The notes under the pieces: model-generated
Databases searched by the model: none
What the model was told of the DNA's origin: nothing
The model's input: the letters and a program-made list of their open reading frames with translations, nothing else
NCBI GenBank assembly: GCA_007136095.1
Contig: SLHP01000132.1
Location: 1 to 39,852 of the forward strand
Length of the DNA stretch: 39,852 nt
Direction: 5' to 3'
DNA from: Nitriliruptoraceae bacterium
GTDB taxonomy: Bacteria > Actinomycetota > Nitriliruptoria > Nitriliruptorales > Nitriliruptoraceae
Program-made: the position numbers and the translations under genes
In this document: piece by piece, positions 13,614 to 28,929 of the stretch
Layout: each line of letters begins with the position of its first letter
Numbering within the stretch: the first letter of the stretch is position 1

Positions 13614-15560
13614 GTGGTTGCCCTGGCAGCATCGAACCCCGACGGAGAGCACCGCGACCCGAAGCGTTCGCGTCCGCACGGCCAGGACGTTGCTCGCCAG
13701 ATGCCGACCTGGGCGAGGTGGTGGGTGCTGCTCCTGGTGCTGAGCGGAGCCACGATGCTCACCGTGCTGTTCGGCGGGTTCGACGCCACGGTGCCGGAGG
13801 AGATCGGCTTCACGCGATTCGTGGAACTCGCCGAGGACGGTCAGGTCGAGCGGGTCACCATCGATCAGGACGGCCGGGTCACCGGCGAACTCGACGACGA
13901 GACACCCTTCGAGACGGTCGTGCCGACCGCGCTCGCCCAGGAGGATCTCCTCGACACCCTGCTGGAACAGAGCGTCGAGATCGAGGCACAACCTCCGACC
14001 GCGAACTGGGCCGCCGCGATCATCTCGATCCTGCCGATCCTGCTCATCATCGCGCTCGTGGTCTTCTTCATACGGCGGGCCGCCGGTGGTCAGATGTCCC
14101 AGATGCAGGGCATGGGCAAGAGCCAGGCGCAGATCATCGATACCGAGCGTCCCGACACGACCTTCGACGACGTCGCCGGCTACGACGAGATCCGCGAGGA
14201 GGTCCGCGAGATCGTCGACTACCTGCGGGATCCCGAGCGGTTCCGCAAGCTCGGCGCCCGTGGTCCAGGCGGTGTCCTGCTGCTCGGACCGGCCGGGACG
14301 GGCAAGACCCTGATGGCCCGCGCCATCGCCGGGGAAGCCGATGTGACCTTCCTCTCGGCGTCCGGATCCGAGTTCGTCGAGATGCTCGTCGGCGTGGGTG
14401 CGGCACGGGTGCGCGACCTGTTCGCGCAGGCCCGTGAGCACCAACCCGCCATCATCTTCATCGACGAGCTCGACTCGGTCGGCCGCAAACGCGGCGGCCA
14501 GAACACGATCGGTTCGAACAACGAGCAGGAACAGACCCTCAACCAACTGTTGAAGGAACTCGACGGCTTCGACCCCCGCGAGGGCATCGTGATCATCGCG
14601 GCGACGAACCGCGCCGAGATGCTCGACGACGCGCTGCTGCGACCGGGCCGGTTCGACCGCCAGGTCGAGGTCGGGCTCCCGACGCAGAAGGACCGCGTCG
14701 AGATCCTGAAGGTCCACGGCCGCGGGAAACCGATCAACGACGACGTCGACCTGCAGACCGTGGCCCGCGGGACCCCGGGATTCAGCGGGGCCCAGCTCGA
14801 GAACCTGGTGAACGAGGCCGCCATCAACTCCGTCCGAGCGGGAAGGGAGACGATCACGCGCGATGACTTCGATGCGGCACGCGACCGCATCATCATCGGC
14901 AAGCGCCAGAGTTCGGACCTGCTCCGGGAGGAGGAGAAGCACCGCGTCGCCGTCCACGAGACCGGCCACGCCCTGGTCGCGGCCGCATCCGAGTACGCGG
15001 ATCCGGTCTCGAAGGTGACCATCCTGCCGGCGCAACGGGCCCTCGGTACCACCGAACAGCTGCCCGTCGAGGAACGCCGCATCGCCGCCGAGGGCTACCT
15101 CTCCGACACCCTGGCCGTCCGGCTCGGCGGTCGGGTGGCCGAGCGCGTCGCGCTCGAGGAACTCTCCTCCGGTGCAGCCAACGACCTGGTGCAGGCAACG
15201 GATCTGGCGACGCGGATGGTCCGGGAGTTCGGCCTGTCTCCCAAGATCGGGCCGGTCGGTTACACCACGCAGGACGAACCCGGTGGCGTTCCGGGTCTCC
15301 ACGGACGTCCCTACGCGGACGGGACCCAGGCCGATATCGACGCCGAGGTGGCGCGACTCCTGCGCGAGGCGGAGGACCGCGCCGAACGCTGCATCATCGA
15401 GCGGCGGGAGGTGTTCGACCGCATCGTCGAACGTCTGCTCGACGTCGAGGTCGTCGACGGCGAGGAGATCTACGCCCTGCTCGACAAGCCCATGCCCGGG
15501 CGGGACGGGGCGGACCCGCCGGACGGCGAGCGGGACAGGAGTCGGACCGACGGGCGCTGA
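13614..15560 (+). CDS. ftsH: ATP-dependent zinc metalloprotease FtsH
   Basis: FtsH is a membrane-anchored hexameric AAA+ protease that degrades membrane and short-lived proteins. The 648 residues give two TM helices (about 35-55 and 132-153) flanking a periplasmic segment. The AAA domain has Walker A GPAGTGKT (225-232), Walker B IIFIDELD (280-287) and the second region of homology with LLRPGRFDR (341-349). The protease domain has HETGH (448-452) and Asp524 in SSGAANDLVQ as third zinc ligand. The pore loop reads FVEMLVG where FVEMFVG is commoner. The start is uncertain. GTG 13614 overlaps its own GAGGAG, a CTG at 13623 would be spaced better, and ATG 13701 would remove the cytoplasmic leader. 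The C-terminus is Asp/Arg-rich. Confidence 0.95.
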   Translation: MVALAASNPDGEHRDPKRSRPHGQDVARQMPTWARWWVLLLVLSGATMLTVLFGGFDATVPEEIGFTRFVELAEDGQVERVTIDQDGRVTGELDDETPFETVVPTALAQEDLLDTLLEQSVEIEAQPPTANWAAAIISILPILLIIALVVFFIRRAAGGQMSQMQGMGKSQAQIIDTERPDTTFDDVAGYDEIREEVREIVDYLRDPERFRKLGARGPGGVLLLGPAGTGKTLMARAIAGEADVTFLSASGSEFVEMLVGVGAARVRDLFAQAREHQPAIIFIDELDSVGRKRGGQNTIGSNNEQEQTLNQLLKELDGFDPREGIVIIAATNRAEMLDDALLRPGRFDRQVEVGLPTQKDRVEILKVHGRGKPINDDVDLQTVARGTPGFSGAQLENLVNEAAINSVRAGRETITRDDFDAARDRIIIGKRQSSDLLREEEKHRVAVHETGHALVAAASEYADPVSKVTILPAQRALGTTEQLPVEERRIAAEGYLSDTLAVRLGGRVAERVALEELSSGAANDLVQATDLATRMVREFGLSPKIGPVGYTTQDEPGGVPGLHGRPYADGTQADIDAEVARLLREAEDRAERCIIERREVFDRIVERLLDVEVVDGEEIYALLDKPMPGRDGADPPDGERDRSRTDGR

Positions 15561-15570
15561 CCGGCGGTGA

Positions 15571-15645
15571 TGGTGGGCACGGCTGGTATCGAACCAGCGA
15601 CCTCTGCCGTGTGAAGGCAGCGCTCTCCCACTGAGCTACGTGCCC
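15571..15645 (-). tRNA. tRNA-Val (anticodon CAC)
   Basis: A 75-nt cloverleaf on the minus strand. The acceptor stem pairs GGGCACG with CGTGCCC (7 bp), the discriminator base is A, and CCA is encoded in the gene (15571-15573). The anticodon arm is CTGCC-TTCACAC-GGCAG, giving anticodon CAC at 15611-15613 (decodes GTG). The T arm contains GGTTCGATACC and the D arm has the usual AGCTCAGTGGGAGAGC sequence. It lies 10 nt beyond the ftsH stop and convergent with it. Confidence 0.97.
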
Positions 15646-15726
15646 GGGAACTTCGGCAACGTAGCCGGGCGCGGGGACCGGGGCCAACCGTCCGCACGGT
15701 TTCCGGGGGGTGCGGACCGACCGGAA

Positions 15727-15759
15727 GGTGACGCAACGGTGACGGGATGCTGAACGGGA
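15727..15759 (+). promoter_or_regulatory. Candidate Pho box: three 11-nt direct repeats before nptA1
   Basis: Three consecutive 11-nt units are seen: GGTGACGCAAC (15727-15737), GGTGACGGGAT (15738-15748) and GCTGAACGGGA (15749-15759). In the reverse complement each carries G(T)TCA(C/G)C, which is the core and the 11-nt period of actinobacterial PhoP sites. The site ends 67 nt before the GTG of a Na/Pi cotransporter gene, with a possible -10 (TATGCG, 15785-15790) in between. Binding by a PhoP-type regulator is inferred. Confidence 0.5.
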
Positions 15760-15826
15760 GCTCACTTGGTGGCCAACGCACGGGTATGCGAAGCTGCCGC
15801 TCCCTTCCATCCCTGGAGTTGCCGGA

Positions 15827-16972
15827 GTGGCGTCCGAGCCCCGATCACCCCAGTCTGCCAGTGCCGTTCCACCTCCGGTGCGGGGCGTCATCGTCCTGCT
15901 CCTGTTGTACGTGTTCCTCGTCGGGGTCGCGTTGCTGGAGGTGGGCATCGCGGGGCTCGGCGAAGATTTCACGACCGGGCTGCTGGACCGGGTCGCCAAC
16001 CCGGTCGCCGGCCTGTTCGCCGGGCTGTTGTTCACGGTCCTGGTGCAGTCGTCGTCGGTCTCGACCTCGGCGATCGTGGGCCTCGTCGGTGCGGGGACCA
16101 TCCCGCTCGGGTTGGCCGTCCCCATGATCATGGGTGCCAACATCGGAACCACGGTGACCAACACCCTGGCGGCGCTGGGCAACATCCGTCGGCCGAACGA
16201 GTTCCGCGCCGGCTTCGCTGCCGCGACGTTGCACGACTACTTCAAGCTGATGTCCGTCGCGATCCTGCTGCCGCTGGAGCTCGCAACCAACTTCCTGACC
16301 AACACCTCCGTGTGGCTGACGGCACGGTTGCGCGGGACCGAGGTCAGCGAGGTGGGTTCGAGTCCGATCCGTACGGCGGTGAAGCTGCCCGTCGACGCCA
16401 TCGAGAACCTGGTCGCCCGACTGCCGCTGCCCACCATCCTTCTGGCCATCCTGCTCCTCGCACTTGGCCTCGGGGCCATCTTCTCGGCGCTCGGCCTGCT
16501 CACCAAGAACATGCGCCTGATGGTGGCTGGCGGCATCGAGCAGGCGATGAACCGCGTCATCGGCAAGGGTGGCGGAGCGGTGGGCATCCTCGTCGGGATC
16601 CTGGTCACCGTGGCCGTGCAGTCCTCGAGCATCACCACCGCGATGCTGGTGCCGATGGCGGCGGCCGGAGTGCTGACCCTGCGCAACGTCTATCCGATCA
16701 CGCTGGGCGCCAACGTCGGAACGACGATCACGGCGCTGCTGGCGTCCCTGGCGGTCCAACGGCCTGAGGGCCTGACGATCGCCCTGGTCCATACCTTGTT
16801 CAACCTGGTCGCGATCGCCATCATCTACCCCATCCCACTGATCCGCGACCTACCGCTGCGTGCCGCTCTCTGGACCGCGAACGTGGCCACCGAGCACCGC
16901 AGCCTGGTGCTCGGCTACGTGATCGGCCTGTTCATCGTGATCCCCGTGGTCGGGGTGTTCGTTCTCGGTTGA
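15827..16972 (+). CDS. Na+/phosphate cotransporter family protein, copy 1
   Basis: This 381-residue inner-membrane transporter of the NptA/PNaS (SLC34-like) family imports phosphate with sodium. The two inverted repeats each carry the family QSSS motif: VLVQSSSVSTSAIVG (residues 74-77 are QSSS) and VAVQSSSITTAMLVP (265-268). Each is followed by GANIGTTVTNTLAALG or GANVGTTITALLASLA. Eight to ten hydrophobic helices are visible. Many bacterial members carry a C-terminal PhoU-like domain. Here the protein ends after the transporter, and the PhoU domain is a separate gene 17 nt downstream. Start GTG 15827 has GGAG 8 nt upstream. The Pho-box-like repeats upstream suggest induction in low phosphate. 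It is roughly two-thirds identical by eye to the copy at 19833. Confidence 0.9.
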   Translation: MASEPRSPQSASAVPPPVRGVIVLLLLYVFLVGVALLEVGIAGLGEDFTTGLLDRVANPVAGLFAGLLFTVLVQSSSVSTSAIVGLVGAGTIPLGLAVPMIMGANIGTTVTNTLAALGNIRRPNEFRAGFAAATLHDYFKLMSVAILLPLELATNFLTNTSVWLTARLRGTEVSEVGSSPIRTAVKLPVDAIENLVARLPLPTILLAILLLALGLGAIFSALGLLTKNMRLMVAGGIEQAMNRVIGKGGGAVGILVGILVTVAVQSSSITTAMLVPMAAAGVLTLRNVYPITLGANVGTTITALLASLAVQRPEGLTIALVHTLFNLVAIAIIYPIPLIRDLPLRAALWTANVATEHRSLVLGYVIGLFIVIPVVGVFVLG

Positions 16973-16989
16973 CCGATAGGAGAAACGCC

Positions 16990-17655
16990 ATGGCGTTCGG
17001 GTTCAAACGCAGCACCTCCGGTGACGACCGGCTCGAGAGCATCGAGGCGATCATCCAGCGCATGTTCAACGATGACCGGGTCGTGTTCGACCTGGCGATG
17101 TCGATCCTGCTCGATGGCGTCGACTGGAAGAGCGTCCGGCGCGAGATCAAGGTCACCGACCAGCGGGTGAACGAGGGCGAACGGGAGGTCCGCCGCGACC
17201 TGGTGGTCCACGCCAGTGTGGTCGGCGCGATCGACACCCCCGCGATCCTCGTCTACATGTCCATCGTCAAGGACATCGAGCGCATCGGTGACTACGCCAA
17301 GAACCTCCGCGACCTGGGCCGTGACGGTGTGGATCTCTCCGACTTCCCCGCCTGGCACGAACTCCGCTCGGAGATCGACGGGTTGATCACCGAGACCGCC
17401 GAGACGTTCGCGGACCGCGACGAGGCCCGTGCCCGGCAACTGCTCGTGCGCGGTGATGAACTCCTCGACGAGTTCGACAAGACCGTGTCAAGCATCGTCC
17501 GCGGAGACGATGACCGGCCCAACGGCGTCGGACGCGCCCTGGCCGCCCGCTACCTCAAGCGCATCGTCGCCCACCTCACCAACGTGCTGTCCGCCATCGT
17601 GATGCCGCTCGAACGTCTGGACTACTTCGACGAGGACCCCGAGGACCGGGAATAG
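16990..17655 (+). CDS. PhoU-domain protein, copy 1
   Basis: A 221-residue all-helical protein with a PhoU-like repeat. The metal-binding pattern ExxxDxxxN is seen once in KDIERIGDYAKNL (Glu97, Asp101, Asn105). The C-terminal helix RYLKRIVAHLTNVLSAIVMP is the usual PhoU end. PhoU domains attached to Na/Pi cotransporters are thought to control transport or sense metal/phosphate state. ATG 16990 is preceded by AGGAGA with 7 nt spacing. A longer reading from 16969 would overlap the transporter gene and has no ribosome site. SulP starts 2 nt after its stop, so at least three genes form one operon. Confidence 0.88.
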   Translation: MAFGFKRSTSGDDRLESIEAIIQRMFNDDRVVFDLAMSILLDGVDWKSVRREIKVTDQRVNEGEREVRRDLVVHASVVGAIDTPAILVYMSIVKDIERIGDYAKNLRDLGRDGVDLSDFPAWHELRSEIDGLITETAETFADRDEARARQLLVRGDELLDEFDKTVSSIVRGDDDRPNGVGRALAARYLKRIVAHLTNVLSAIVMPLERLDYFDEDPEDRE

Positions 17656-17657
17656 GG

Positions 17658-19370
17658 ATGGAAGAACGGACGGTAGGGCGGCGACCGAGCCTGCCGATCC
17701 GTGAGTGGGGCCGCCAGTACCGTCGCGAGTGGCTGGGACGGGATCTGCTCGGTGGGGCCGTGGTCACCGCTCTGGCCATCCCGCAGGCGCTCGGCTACGC
17801 CGTGATCGCCGGGGTGCCGGTGCAGGTGGGGCTGTACGCCATCCCCGTCGCCCTCATCGCCTACGCGGTGTTCGGCTCGTCGCCGCACGTCAGCGTCGGT
17901 CCGGTCTCCACGGTGTCCGTGGTCTCCGGCTCCATCGTCGCCGTGCACGCCGGTGGTGACCCTGAACGGGCCGTCGAACTGACCGTCGCTCTGGCCCTGC
18001 TCTCCGGGGCGATCCTCATCGTGGCAGGCCTCCTGCAGACGGGGTGGGTGGCGGAGTTCCTCTCCAAGCCGATCGTGAGCGGCTTCGTGTTCGGGCTCTC
18101 GATCGTGATCATCGTCGGCGAGGTGCCACGGCTGCTCGGCCTGCCGCCCGTCGACGGCAGGGTGTTCATGCGGATGTTCGGCATCCTCACCTCGGTCTCG
18201 GCACTGGATGCCGACACCGCGCTCCTTGGCGTCGTGTGTCTGGCCGTGCTGTTCCTCGGTAGCGCCCTGACCCGGATGGTTCCCTGGGGACTGCTCGTGG
18301 TGGTGGCCGCACTCGTGCTCTCGAACACGCTCGGCCTGGCCGAACGCGGTGTCGCGGTCGTGGGCGCCGTCCCACGTGGACTCCCGGCACCGTCCCTACC
18401 TGCTCTGGCCCTCAGCGACCTCGGGATCCTGTTCATCCCGGCGATCGGCCTGGCGCTGGTCGGCCTCGCGGAGAGCCTCAGCGCCGCACGGCTGTTCGCC
18501 ACGCAGGGCGGATACCGGATCGACACGGACCAGGAGTTCGTCGCCACCGGGGTGGCCAACGTGGCCTCCGGGATCTTCGGGGGACTCGGGGTCGCTGGCA
18601 GCCTGTCGAAGACGGCGGCGGCCGTGCGCGCGGGCGGCGACAGCCAGGTCGTGAGCATCACGGCGGCGGCGCTGACACTCGGTGTGCTGGCCGTGTTCGC
18701 TCCGTCGCTCAGCGAACTCCCACGAGCGGTGCTGTCCGCGATCGTGATCCACGCCGTCTGGGGTCTGATGGACGTGCGCGCGCTGCGACGCTACGCACGG
18801 ATCCGGCGTAACGATCTGGTCGCGGCGACAGGTGCACTGCTGGGGGTGCTGCTGTTCGGCACGCTCAACGGCCTGTTGATCGCGATCGGACTGTCACTGC
18901 TGGGCCTGGTCTACCGTGCCAGCCGCGTCCAGGTCGAGGAGATCGGGCGCATCAAGGGCGAGAAGGCCGCCTGGGGTTCGATCAGCCGGCACCCGCAGCG
19001 GCGGAGCATCGACGGCCTCAAGATCCTGCGTCTGGATTCCCCCCTGTTCTGGGTGAACGCCGCCGCGGTCGAGCAACAGGTGATCACCGCGGTCGATGCC
19101 GCGCCCGGCATCCGCGCGGTCATCCTCGACCTCGAGGTCACCGACCAGCTCGACACCACGAGTACCGACATGCTCCACAACCTCATCGGCCGCCTGCGTC
19201 AGCGCGGTATCGACCTCTACCTGGTGCGGGTGATGTTCCGGGCCCGGGTGGTGCTCAAGCGTTCGGGGATCCGGGACGTGCTCGGCGACCAGCACATGTG
19301 GCGGACGATCTCCCAGGCCGTCAAGCGGGCGAGGAAGGATCACGGGTTGTCAGATCACGCCAGGGAGTGA
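17658..19370 (+). CDS. SulP-family anion permease with STAS domain
   Basis: This is a 570-residue secondary transporter of the SulP/SLC26 family, whose members carry sulfate, bicarbonate or dicarboxylates. The membrane part (about 15-420) opens with LGGAVVTALAIPQALGYAVI, the conserved first-helix signature. It also includes FGSSPHVSVGPVSTVSVVSG and GLGVAGSLSKTAAAVRAGG, where the family usually has a Ser/Thr-rich gate. The cytoplasmic STAS domain (about 450-560) contains IRAVILDLEVTDQLDTTSTD. The substrate cannot be fixed from sequence; its place in a phosphate operon leaves phosphate-, sulfate- or bicarbonate-coupled use open. ATG 17658 follows the phoU stop directly, with AGGG just before it. 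Confidence 0.92.
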   Translation: MEERTVGRRPSLPIREWGRQYRREWLGRDLLGGAVVTALAIPQALGYAVIAGVPVQVGLYAIPVALIAYAVFGSSPHVSVGPVSTVSVVSGSIVAVHAGGDPERAVELTVALALLSGAILIVAGLLQTGWVAEFLSKPIVSGFVFGLSIVIIVGEVPRLLGLPPVDGRVFMRMFGILTSVSALDADTALLGVVCLAVLFLGSALTRMVPWGLLVVVAALVLSNTLGLAERGVAVVGAVPRGLPAPSLPALALSDLGILFIPAIGLALVGLAESLSAARLFATQGGYRIDTDQEFVATGVANVASGIFGGLGVAGSLSKTAAAVRAGGDSQVVSITAAALTLGVLAVFAPSLSELPRAVLSAIVIHAVWGLMDVRALRRYARIRRNDLVAATGALLGVLLFGTLNGLLIAIGLSLLGLVYRASRVQVEEIGRIKGEKAAWGSISRHPQRRSIDGLKILRLDSPLFWVNAAAVEQQVITAVDAAPGIRAVILDLEVTDQLDTTSTDMLHNLIGRLRQRGIDLYLVRVMFRARVVLKRSGIRDVLGDQHMWRTISQAVKRARKDHGLSDHARE

Positions 19371-19405
19371 CTCGGTGGCGCAGCCGCTGGATCGGCCTGC
19401 GTGCA

Positions 19406-19417
19406 GGATCGCGATCC
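19406..19417. promoter_or_regulatory. 12-bp perfect palindrome upstream of the small-ORF transcript
   Basis: GGATCGCGATCC is a perfect 12-bp palindrome located 24 nt before the extreme Shine-Dalgarno sequence and 36 nt after the SulP stop. It could be an operator for a dimeric regulator, or chance in GC-rich sequence. No clear -10 hexamer is recognised between it and the small ORF. Confidence 0.3.
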
Positions 19418-19457
19418 GTGTGGCACAGTGCGCGCACCAGAGAGAGGAGGTGGTCCA

Positions 19458-19505
19458 TTGAGTAGCAACCATAGAATCGGGACCCTGGAGGTGCTCGGCC
19501 GCTAG
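19458..19505 (+). CDS. 15-residue peptide ORF with extended Shine-Dalgarno sequence
   Basis: TTG 19458 opens a 15-codon frame (MSSNHRIGTLEVLGR) ending at TAG 19503-19505. The upstream 16 nt, AGAGAGGAGGTGGTCC, match the full complement of a typical 16S 3' tail (AGAAAGGAGGTGATCC) at 14 positions, far more than normal genes in this window. GGAGG to TTG spacing is 7 nt. The peptide has no run of one amino acid and no Cys, so it does not look like a classical amino-acid attenuation leader or the Cys leader of sulfur genes. The stop codon lies in the loop of a 5-bp hairpin. Translation may matter more than the peptide itself. Confidence 0.45.
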   Translation: MSSNHRIGTLEVLGR

Positions 19506-19692
19506 GAGGCCGGACGCTGGAACGCTCCAGCGAATACCAGCCGAGTACCGCCCCTCGCATCGGTCGGGAAGTTGTCCCGCTCGACGCCCCGGGAGCCCCG
19601 CACGTCACTCGACCACAGCGTCGGGTCCGCGCGGCACCTGCCCCGGGAGCGGTGCCGGAGGTTCCATTCCAGCACAGCAACATCTGCACACC

Positions 19693-19725
19693 ACGAAGGG
19701 CGCGGCACGATGCCGCGCCCTTCGT
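19693..19725 (+). terminator. Strong terminator-like hairpin
   Basis: A perfect 15-bp stem (ACGAAGGGCGCGGCA pairing with TGCCGCGCCCTTCGT) encloses a 3-nt loop, CGA. It is the strongest inverted repeat I see in the window. It has no U-tract on either strand and is symmetrical, so it could work both ways. It lies 323 nt after SulP and 107 nt before the second Na/Pi cotransporter start, so it would separate the small-ORF RNA from that gene. Confidence 0.65.
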
Positions 19726-19832
19726 CGTGCGCGCTCGTCAGGCGCCCGCGGTGTCTTGCGGGTTGCCGTGGCGACCTGCGAGGCTGCCGGCGCTCGTTCG
19801 CCGTTCCTCCTCGGATCCGCAAGGGATCTCCT

Positions 19833-20987
19833 CTGAGCACATCGTCACGGACCGGCCGCGCTGGTCATCGCGACCTCCCGACCGCCGCGCGGGCAGCGCT
19901 GGTGGTCCTGCTGCTGTACGTCTTCCTGGTGGGTGTCGCACTGCTCGAAGCGGGGATCTCCGCCCTCGGTGCCGGGTTCCAGCAGGGACTGCTGGAACAG
20001 GTCGCGAACCCGATCTCCGGGTTGAGCGCAGGGATCCTCGTCACCGTGCTCGTCCAGTCCTCGTCGGTCTCCACGGCGGCCATCGTCGGTCTCGTCGGCG
20101 CCGGCACACTGACGCTGCCCGCAGCCATCCCGATGATCATGGGTGCGAACATCGGCACGACGGTCACCAACACCCTGGCGGCGCTCGGCAACATCCGACG
20201 GACCGAGGAGTTCCGGCGGGGCTTCGCCGGGGCGACGATGCACGACCTGTTCAACGTGTTGGCCGTCGCGATCCTCCTGCCGCTCGAGCTCGCGTTCGGC
20301 TGGCTCTCCCGCAGCGCCGTCTGGCTCACCGAGATCCTGCGCGAGACCGAGATCGACGCGGCCGCACCACCAGCGAGTCCGATCCGTCGCGCGGTCAGGT
20401 TCCCGGTCGAACAACTGGAACACATCATCGACCCGACGATCCTCGGGAGCCTCGTCGCCGGCGTGCTGTTACTGGCCATCGGACTCGGCCTGATCTTCCT
20501 GGCGCTCGGGTTCATCACCAGGAACATGCGGCTGCTGGTCGCGGGCGCCGTCGAGCGGACGATGAACCGGATCGTCGGCCGCGGCGGCGGATCGGTGGGG
20601 ATCCTGGTCGGCATCGCCGTGACGGTCGCGGTGCAGTCCTCGACCATCACCACCTCGATCCTGGTCCCTCTGGTCGCCGCCGGGATCCTCACGCTGCGGA
20701 ACGCCTACCCGATCACGCTCGGCGCCAACGTCGGGACCACGATCACCGCGTTGCTGGCCTCGTTGGCGGTGCTGCGCCCGGAGGGTCTGTCGATCGCGTT
20801 GGTCCACACGCTGTTCAACCTCACCGCCCTTGCGTTGCTCTACCCCATCCCCCAGGTCAGGGTCCTGCCGATCCGTGCCGCGGAATGGCTCGCTGACCAG
20901 GCCGTCAAGCGGCGATCGGTGATGGTCACCTACGTGTTGGGCCTGTTCCTCGTGGTGCCGCTGCTCGGCATCGTCCTGCTCGACTGA
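19833..20987 (+). CDS. Na+/phosphate cotransporter family protein, copy 2
   Basis: This is a paralogue of the transporter at 15827 with the same role. Motifs are VLVQSSSVSTAAIVG in repeat 1 and VAVQSSTITTSILVP in repeat 2, where the third Ser of QSSS has become Thr, plus the two GAN(I/V)GTT loops. Length is 384 residues from the proposed start. No ATG, GTG or TTG occurs close to the first helix; the nearest ATG (19710) would add 41 residues of shadow-like Arg-rich sequence. CTG 19833 has AAGGGA 6 nt upstream and gives an N-terminus within two residues of the paralogue's length. I therefore propose a CTG start. PhoU-like copy 2 follows after 16 nt. Confidence 0.87.
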   Translation: MSTSSRTGRAGHRDLPTAARAALVVLLLYVFLVGVALLEAGISALGAGFQQGLLEQVANPISGLSAGILVTVLVQSSSVSTAAIVGLVGAGTLTLPAAIPMIMGANIGTTVTNTLAALGNIRRTEEFRRGFAGATMHDLFNVLAVAILLPLELAFGWLSRSAVWLTEILRETEIDAAAPPASPIRRAVRFPVEQLEHIIDPTILGSLVAGVLLLAIGLGLIFLALGFITRNMRLLVAGAVERTMNRIVGRGGGSVGILVGIAVTVAVQSSTITTSILVPLVAAGILTLRNAYPITLGANVGTTITALLASLAVLRPEGLSIALVHTLFNLTALALLYPIPQVRVLPIRAAEWLADQAVKRRSVMVTYVLGLFLVVPLLGIVLLD

Positions 20988-21003
20988 TGACTAGGATCGA
21001 CCG

Positions 21004-21699
21004 ATGGTCTTCGGCCTCACCCGCAGGGACGACAGTGGACGCCTCGATCGCATCGAGGCGTCCTTCCAGCGCATGTTCATCGACGACCGGCACGCCTTCG
21101 ACATGGCGATGTCCGCACTGATCGGTGGCGCCAGTCCAGGGACGGTCGGTGACGACATCCGGGCCACCGACCGCCGGGTCAACGAGGCAGAGCGCGAGAT
21201 CCGCCGCGAACTCGTGGTCCATGCCGGTGTCCACGGTGGCTTCGACGCACCCCCCGTGCTGATCTACATGTCGATCGTGAAGGACGTCGAACGGATCGGC
21301 GACTACGCCAAGAACCTCTACGACATCGCCGCCGATGGCGTGGTCCTCGATCGCGGCGAGCTGATGACCGAGATGCTCGAGCTACGCGGGAACATCTCCA
21401 CCCTCATCAGCGACGTCGCGGAGGTCTTCGGGCAACGCGACACCGACCGTGCACGGGAGCTGTTCCAGTACGGGGACGGGCTACAGGACGATTTCGACCG
21501 ACGGGTCTCCGACCTGGTCACCGGACGGATCGGTGAGCCGTACGCGGTCGCCTACGCGCTGACCTACCGCTACCTCAAGCGCATCGTCGCGCACCTGATG
21601 AACGTGCTGTCCGCCGTCGTCATGCCCGTCGATCGGCTCGACTACTTCGACGAGGATCCTGAGGACCGCCTGGATCGTCGCGCCGACGGCGACACCTGA
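21004..21699 (+). CDS. PhoU-domain protein, copy 2
   Basis: A 231-residue paralogue of the protein at 16990, again directly downstream of a Na/Pi cotransporter. The metal motif is KDVERIGDYAKNL (Glu96, Asp100, Asn104). The C-terminal block RYLKRIVAHLMNVLSAVVMP and the acidic end RLDYFDEDPEDR are almost identical to copy 1, so the whole transporter-PhoU cassette was duplicated. ATG 21004 has AGGA about 8 nt upstream, and the transporter stop is 16 nt before it. The C-terminal RRADGDT tail is extra relative to copy 1 and is encoded by one member of a 12-bp direct repeat. Confidence 0.88.
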   Translation: MVFGLTRRDDSGRLDRIEASFQRMFIDDRHAFDMAMSALIGGASPGTVGDDIRATDRRVNEAEREIRRELVVHAGVHGGFDAPPVLIYMSIVKDVERIGDYAKNLYDIAADGVVLDRGELMTEMLELRGNISTLISDVAEVFGQRDTDRARELFQYGDGLQDDFDRRVSDLVTGRIGEPYAVAYALTYRYLKRIVAHLMNVLSAVVMPVDRLDYFDEDPEDRLDRRADGDT

Positions 21700-27909: not shown

Positions 27910-28929
27910 TCAGCTGACGACGTCCCAGACGTTGCCGGACCCGAGGAGTTGCTCGAGCGAGCCCTCCCCCTGGTCGACGCGTGCCTGTTCGACCTGGTCG
28001 CGTGAGACCTCGTCGTAGGCCGCACGATCCACATCCCGGAAGATCCCGATCGGGGTCGGGCCGGTCGGGTTGTGCGACAACCGGGCCAGTGCGAACGCGG
28101 TGGTCGGCTCGGGCTTGTTGGGGTCGTGGATCACCACCCGGTCACCCGCCTCCTCGGTCGGCACGATCTTCATCGAACCGTCTCCGCGCGCAACAACGGC
28201 GTTCTCGCCGTCGGGCCCGAAGGTGATCGGCTCACCGGCAGTCAGGCGGATCTGGTTGTGGTCCTTCTGATCCTTGTCCTTGATCGCCATGAACGCGCCG
28301 TCGTTGAACACGTTGCAGTTCTGGTAGATCTCGACGAATGCCGCCCCACGGTGGTTGTAGGCCGCTTCGAGGACCGAGGACAGGTGCTTGCGGTCCGTGT
28401 CGATGCTGCGGGCGACGAACGTGGCCTCGGCGCCGAGCGCCAGGCTCACCGGGTTCATCGGCCGGTCGATCGACCCCATCGGCGTCGACTTCTTGACTGA
28501 TCCCAACGGTGAGGTCGGCGAGTACTGGCCCTTGGTCAGCCCGTAGATCTCGTTGTTGAACAGCAGGATCTTGAGGTTGACGTTGCGCCGCAGCGCGTGG
28601 ATCAGGTGGTTGCCCCCGATCGACAACCCATCACCGTCACCGGTCACGACCCAGACGTCAAGGTCCGGCCGCGTGATCGCGAGCCCCGTCGCGACCGCGG
28701 GCGCACGACCGTGGATCGTGTGGAACCCGTAGGTGTCCATGTAGTACGGGAACCGTGACGAACACCCGATCCCAGAGATGAACGCGGTGGATTCCGGCCT
28801 CGCGCCGAGTTCGGGCAGCAGGGTCTGCACGGTCGCCAGGATCGCGTAGTCCCCACAACCCGGGCACCAGCGAACCTCACGGTCCGAGGTGAAGTCCTTC
28901 TTGGTCAGCTTGCTGTCGTTGGTGGTCAC
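27910..28929 (-). CDS. korB: 2-oxoglutarate:ferredoxin oxidoreductase beta subunit
   Basis: KorB is the thiamine diphosphate-binding subunit of the enzyme that converts 2-oxoglutarate and CoA to succinyl-CoA with reduction of ferredoxin. The 339 residues include WCPGCGDYAIL, GIGCSSRFPYYM, the TPP/Mg motif GDGDGLSIGGNHLIHA and FNNEIYGLTKGQYSPTS, all standard for KorB/PorB. GTG 28929 overlaps the korA stop (GTGA) and begins VTTNDSKLTKKDFTSDREV. A longer reading would run far into korA. Substrate choice between pyruvate and 2-oxoglutarate rests on the two-subunit layout and sequence likeness to actinobacterial KorB. Confidence 0.93.
   Translation of the reverse strand: MTTNDSKLTKKDFTSDREVRWCPGCGDYAILATVQTLLPELGARPESTAFISGIGCSSRFPYYMDTYGFHTIHGRAPAVATGLAITRPDLDVWVVTGDGDGLSIGGNHLIHALRRNVNLKILLFNNEIYGLTKGQYSPTSPLGSVKKSTPMGSIDRPMNPVSLALGAEATFVARSIDTDRKHLSSVLEAAYNHRGAAFVEIYQNCNVFNDGAFMAIKDKDQKDHNQIRLTAGEPITFGPDGENAVVARGDGSMKIVPTEEAGDRVVIHDPNKPEPTTAFALARLSHNPTGPTPIGIFRDVDRAAYDEVSRDQVEQARVDQGEGSLEQLLGSGNVWDVVS

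Follow-up and report, generated by a model that had tools for sequence, protein, structure and literature searches.

The PHO boxes of Streptomyces, as described in the literature, are 11-nt direct repeats with a GTTCACC-like core that accompany phosphate genes (PMC4415409, PMC7866108, PMC6754071). In Staphylococcus aureus, the PhoPR system controls the inorganic phosphate (Pi) importers, and NptA, which carries a PhoU domain, matters at alkaline pH (PMC13170248, PMC10746193); the glucose response described there is independent of PhoPR (PMC10746193). In the literature covered, judged by titles and abstract openings, we found no paper on PHO boxes before nptA genes in Actinobacteria. An earlier note on the DNA analyzed here had likened a triple 11-nt repeat before such a gene to a PhoP box, and our analyses agreed with that reading, except that the regulator is better termed RegX3/PhoP-type. 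The PhoP/RegX3 reading of the array, made by sequence comparison, is well supported, and the array is very likely an operator, if a putative one, of the genome's own response regulator of this type.

The window, by which we mean the whole stretch of 39,852 nt that was analyzed, comes from an uncultured actinobacterium and contains the Na/Pi cotransporter gene nptA1, whose closest named matches are Nitriliruptoraceae MAGs with 86–87% nptA1 identity (among the best 80 of 491 matches), and its closest named relatives belong to the class Nitriliruptoria. The sample names of the closest MAGs, CSSed and T1Sed, presumably denote soda-lake sediments. The family Nitriliruptoraceae is mentioned in the available text of soda-lake papers. 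The features around the array are as follows:

15571..15645, minus strand: tRNA-Val (CAC), divergent neighbor of nptA1
15658..15663, minus strand: TACGTT, the probable -10 element for tRNA-Val, at 63 nt from the array
15727..15733, minus strand: box 3, CGTCACC
15738..15744, minus strand: box 2, CGTCACC
15749..15755, minus strand: box 1, GTTCAGC, nearest to nptA1
15785..15791, plus strand: TATGCGA, putative nptA1 -10 region, not the standard TANNNT
15827..16972, plus strand: nptA1, Na/Pi cotransporter, GTG start (Pfam PF02690; NCBIfam NF037997 above cut-off)
16969..17655, plus strand: PhoU-domain gene directly behind nptA1, for which an alternative later ATG at 16990 is possible
17658..19370, plus strand: SulP-family permease, starting 2 nt past the PhoU gene (PF00916 and STAS; NCBIfam sulP just below cut-off)

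The array sits in the 181-bp gap between the tRNA-Val gene and nptA1 and lies 71 nt upstream of the nptA1 GTG, which places it in the predicted promoter region of a phosphate gene (PF02690). No sigma-70 consensus promoter was found within 15560–15900, and we infer that TNTGCGA is the -10 region of nptA1. The PhoU-domain gene (16969..17655) probably forms one operon with nptA1, and the SulP-family permease may possibly share their transcript. Downstream of the permease lie nptA2 and a second PhoU-like gene, the latter judged from sequence only; the nptA-phoU unit is duplicated at 15827–21699, with the permease between both copies.

On the plus strand, the array reads GGTGACG (15727–15733), GGTGACG (15738–15744), and GCTGAAC (15749–15755) at steps of exactly 11 and 11 nt; the three adjacent 11-nt units, read directly from the letters, are at the positions reported (15727–15759). 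On the minus strand it runs GTTCAGC-ATCC-CGTCACC-GTTG-CGTCACC, i.e., GTTCAGC-N4-CGTCACC-N4-CGTCACC, which confirmed the described reverse complement of one GTTCAGC and two GTCACC at 11-nt steps. It has at least two direct repeat units at 11-nt steps, as a PHO box does, and its units match the GTTCACC-like core at 6, 5, and 5 of 7 letters, two of the three being imperfect.

An exact pattern derived from the site matched once in the window and in none of 100 shuffles; since this pattern was copied from the array, it confirms only the reading of the letters. We also scanned the 3,056,072-base assembly (92% complete) with a literature-style pattern of KTCAYY at 11-nt steps, three units, with up to two mismatches. 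The array was the sole place with one mismatch in the 3.06 Mb, the backward control yielding none, and the 12 other rows, all with two mismatches, included the array itself in a shifted register (one), overlapping matches before a stress-protein gene (two), and an array before phoU (one). A simpler two-unit pattern matched at 50 places in the assembly versus 5 in its backward control, which differs in dinucleotide make-up, and we therefore gave weight to period controls instead. With a scoring matrix trained on the pstS promoters of 28 relatives, the genome's own pstS excluded, the array was the top triple in the window at a moderate 13.7 bits; the second-best triple (9.6 bits) overlaps it, and the best independent one reached 7.8 bits. 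Scored as a doublet, the array ranked only fifth in the window (10.4, versus 14.0 for the best, at 28129), and the wrong periods 12 and 15 gave window triples of 13.7 and 13.9 bits. The comparison of matrix score and background proposed in the earlier note thus favored the site as a triple, which ranked first both window-wide under the pstS-trained matrix and across the assembly with the core pattern; it did not rank first as a doublet, and wrong periods gave similar scores.

These results bear on whether the array is a chance repeat in GC-rich DNA. Scores equal to that of the array were reached by 10 of 40000 simulated 181-bp gaps with the consensus score and 17 of 40000 with the matrix, versus 3 of 100 and 12 of 100 simulated 40-kb windows, respectively; taken by itself, the sequence is therefore informative when the place is set in advance but does not decide the matter window-wide, and the significance of the array for the whole 40-kb window is borderline. 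The window-wide simulations and the similar matrix scores of wrong periods speak for chance, and against it stand the rarity within the gap itself, retention in the clade, and a contrast between cores and spacers. Chance is an extremely improbable explanation: although the sequence is insufficient to dismiss it at the scale of the window, the relatives largely rule it out.

Retention was assessed upstream of nptA in 30 genomes, our own included, at all of the 30 loci listed out of matches in 59 of 120 genomes. At period 11, eight of the 30 loci scored at least 16 and six at least 17, compared with 0–1 and none, respectively, at ten other periods between 7 and 17 and, with the core read backwards, at all periods. 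The best 80 of 491 named nptA loci gave a similar picture, with 9 reaching 16 and 5 reaching 17 at period 11 versus 0–3 and 0–1 at other periods. These 80 include near-copies; 102 distinct nptA upstreams remain, of which 12 carry a strong doublet at period 11 and 0–1 at other periods, the strong doublet being missing from most of these upstreams; a strong array is likewise missing from most of the distant ones. By position, there were 21 triples in the 30.6 kb before nptA versus 3 in the 498 kb around, overlapping registers counted, and 13 doublets versus 9, so that outside the 300-bp nptA upstreams the density of triples was lower by a factor of about 114 and that of doublets by a factor of about 23. 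The control periods 9, 10, 12, and 13 each gave 0–2 triples before nptA.

In a protein tree, six of seven well-placed members of the nptA1 clade carry the array on the same side, two of them weakly, so within this clade the array is kept with the gene. The two weak members (L025 and L026) were called array-bearing, despite a triple score of 15.5 against a cut of 16, because their matches are located at the offset of the window's array. The claim that the repeat persists in relatives that keep the gene was accordingly upheld in five of six close nptA1 relatives, these two below the cut included, and contradicted in G026, where the array is absent. G009, a long branch in the tree, lies outside the seven members counted. 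A label test on the tree, which compared reversed with forward arrays only and excluded 21 unlabelled rows, gave no significant result (an equally low value in 167 of 500 shuffles). Among the four closest orthologues, identity was 0.63 in the cores and 0.26 in the spacers, and all 12 units have a T at position 3. Three orthologues have one common offset from the start codon, so they could be aligned without a motif-based shift, although the offset itself comes from the motif scan; they gave 0.62 and 0.25, and their contrast was strongest in the phase expected, with the phase one base further equal to it. Across the four, conservation of the complete 33-nt array did not exceed that of the 29-nt gap that follows it (0.50 vs 0.48), the latter value being inflated by one close pair.

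Neither nptA2 nor nptA3 (contig C136) of this genome has an upstream triple scoring at least 15, and no triple of at least 15.5 was found in the seven rows of the nptA2 clade, where the best candidate was a weak minus-strand match of 15.0 in L036. The region before nptA2 (about 19420–19725 in the window) holds a conserved element of another kind, which recurs at L025–L029 and L211–L234, occurs once per genome in 24 of 35 family genomes, is absent from the 85 other genomes searched, and is frequently immediately upstream of an nptA gene; in G004, G005, G009, G016, and G018 it lies on a different contig from the best nptA match. It has a near-invariant ACCAGAG..GGAGGTGGTCC and then, behind a strong ribosome-binding sequence, a TTG-started reading frame of 14–15 codons (approximately LxSSHxxGTLEVxGR, stop TAG or TGA) that is in frame in 24 of 24 copies and occurs in two lengths. 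After the frame come stems and, at the end of the element, a GC-rich hairpin resembling a terminator, paired changes being seen in 13 of 42 pairs (counted without a shuffle control), and no Rfam family matched it at the gathering score, the weak matches being at chance level and to the hairpin only. The element may represent a leader or small RNA, as yet undescribed, that contains a mini-ORF.

The genome encodes a fitting regulator. The response regulator at G000:C200:12367-13050 (complement) has a receiver and a Trans_reg_C domain, finds its best solved relative in RegX3 (284 bits, with MtrA next at 198), and scores below the equivalog cut-offs of NCBIfam for PhoB and MtrA; on the same contig it adjoins a histidine kinase gene (PF00512) and PhoU-like genes, one of them Pfam-confirmed. 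The regulator is best called RegX3/PhoP-type and the pair SenX3/RegX3-like, and a PhoR/PhoP-type pair, which the earlier note had proposed to look for, is thereby located beside phoU genes. Of 36 genomes, the own one among them, 33 have a close relative of the regulator (E <= 1e-80). Before the Pfam-confirmed phoU gene on that contig is a four-unit array (GTTCACC/GTCCACC/GTTCACG/GTTCAGC), which is forward with a TANNNT at 20 nt, and the genome's own pstS, on contig C21, has upstream boxes that are both direct and inverted. Beside these direct repeats, the stretch at L021 1295–1312 (GTTCACCTCAAGGTGAAC) is an inverted repeat like the mycobacterial RegX3 site. A reversed PHO-box-like array was also seen before a universal stress protein gene (L009 2335–2374; G000:C138:26334-26373), with TAGCTT, a TANNNT match, 27 nt downstream and no such match on its opposite side.

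From these comparisons we infer that the RegX3-like regulator binds the nptA1 array. A spacing of 11 nt is widespread among OmpR-family sites, and GTCAC-N6-GTCAC in the array partly resembles the GlnR site. MtrA, GlnR, or another member of the family with similar repeats is nonetheless an improbable occupant, given that two orthologues (G034 and G031) carry GTTCACC-N4-GTTCACC, the same box as before the pstS genes of relatives.

What the earlier note had not seen is that the boxes, lying on the minus strand, are directed away from nptA1, and that the tRNA-Val gene is its divergent neighbor. The array hence does not share the orientation that prevails before pstS. The pstS set comprised 29 genomes, own included, one of 30 loci (L174) being excluded because its gene is cut by the contig end. 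The best triple (at least 14) was forward in 25 of the 29; at a score of at least 16.5 there were 11 forward and 4 reversed, and two of the four reversed distal arrays (G016 and G021) face a divergent regulator gene, judging from coordinates. Where a forward doublet lies within 210 bp of pstS (L146–L173), a TANNNT follows exactly 31 nt downstream in 21 of 23 cases, the others being at 32 and 42 nt, a distance that in sequence terms is a rigid promoter design. The nptA1 array stands at a near-equal distance (29 vs 31 nt) from its candidate -10, reversed and with TNTGCGA instead of TANNNT, no TANNNT being found downstream of the window's array. TNTGCGA lies 29 nt past the array in all four closest nptA1 orthologues, in one of which (L024) the distance of 29 nt results from placing the end of the array one unit beyond.

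Boxes pointing toward the tRNA-Val gene, the immediate neighbor in the window and in G003, might suggest that the array belongs to that gene. This is very improbable and is rejected on spacing: the array and the tRNA-Val -10 are 63 nt apart, no minus-side TANNNT at 31 nt is present in any of the six nptA1 loci, and the nptA1 side keeps its fixed 29 nt to TNTGCGA in four of four. Moreover, in three genomes (G023, G034, and G031), the tRNA gene is more than 500 nt from nptA1, with a conserved element between, and the array stays near nptA1. Because the far side lacks a TANNNT at 31 nt in all six loci, the array in the nptA1 clade most likely serves nptA1. In terms of predicted promoters, the new point is that the nptA1 boxes point away from the gene, pstS boxes being mostly forward, and that the neighboring tRNA promoter is unsuited.

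Of the 12 doublets upstream of nptA, 10 lay on the minus strand, as did 2 of the 14 at pstS (Fisher p = 0.0011). Minus-strand doublets upstream of nptA, counted at 14 loci, were followed by a TANNNT at 27–32 nt in five, at 38–39 nt in two, at 7 nt in one, and not at all in six. In four Acidimicrobiia loci (L106, L113, L124, and L131), a PstS-like gene (TIGR02136, below cut-off) is divergent to nptA with the boxes between, the third box being 31 nt from the pstS-side TANNNT in four of four and the nptA-side TANNNT 28–38 nt away; the divergent gene can explain the reversed boxes there. At L111, also Acidimicrobiia, a gene for a PhoU-histidine kinase fusion is divergent to nptA with boxes between, and L145, seen in the sequence and not part of the gene scan, looks like these divergent loci. 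We rejected minus-strand bias as a hallmark of nptA promoters, since part of it is confounded by divergent phosphate genes at the Acidimicrobiia loci; no cases other than the nptA1 clade of Nitriliruptoraceae and the stress-protein gene are free of this confounding.

Under the RegX3/PhoP-type reading, low phosphate would lead the partner kinase to phosphorylate the regulator, as is known for the family; regulator dimers would bind the 11-nt units head to tail, some 40–70 bp upstream of the predicted transcription start, and the bound regulator would increase the expression of both nptA1 and the PhoU-domain gene that follows. Activation rather than repression is probable in view of the array's position and, by analogy, of S. 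aureus PhoPR control of Pi importers. The reverse orientation of the array would also suit a regulator that represses nptA1 at low phosphate, fitting a low-affinity or export system, and Streptomyces PhoP is described as repressing genes too (PMC6283541). Repression is unlikely, however, given that the presumed core promoter is downstream of the array, separated from it by almost the same distance as at pstS, and that PhoPR controls Pi importer expression in S. aureus (PMC13170248). Speculatively, and with considerable doubt, since a TANNNT at 27–32 nt was found at only five of the 14 nptA loci, we suggest that the phosphate regulon of these actinobacteria has two promoter designs, with forward arrays 31 nt before the pstS -10 and reversed ones about 27–32 nt before the -10 at nptA and the stress-protein gene; the reversed nptA1 form could be a relic of an ancestral divergent pstS-nptA region, as in Acidimicrobiia, and the regulator would therefore work with either face toward RNA polymerase.

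The array would place a sodium-driven phosphate transporter within the phosphate-starvation regulon of Nitriliruptoraceae-like actinobacteria. The lineage-specific definition of the operator, with its fixed pstS spacing, would be usable for regulon prediction, and if reversed arrays truly activate, this would be relevant to the contacts that OmpR/PhoB-family regulators make with RNA polymerase.

Set against the described systems, the array looks like a switch of the expected type, its place at this transporter gene and its direction being less usual. It has in common with the Streptomyces PHO box the 11-nt direct repeats, the GTTCACC-like core, at least two units, and a phosphate gene, and it differs in its target, a Na/Pi cotransporter gene not named in the accessible parts of the PHO-box papers, in the CGTCACC cores of two of its three units, in boxes pointing away from the gene, and in its host class, Nitriliruptoria. 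In S. aureus, PhoPR likewise controls Pi importers and PhoU is tied to NptA, but that system belongs to another phylum and has PhoU fused to NptA, where the window has a separate gene. RegX3 of Mycobacterium, to which the genome's regulator is closest among solved proteins, has a site with the core GTGAAC that is described as an inverted repeat with a 5–7-nt spacer (PMC7525159), whereas the site in the window is direct only. The PolR site of Microlunatus phosphovorus (GTTCACnnnnnGTTCaC) has the same core and spacing as the window's array and likewise accompanies phosphate transporter genes (PMC6754071); PolS-PolR differs in its proposed response to oxygen and in its described targets, pit, pstS, ppk, and ppgk (PMC6754071).
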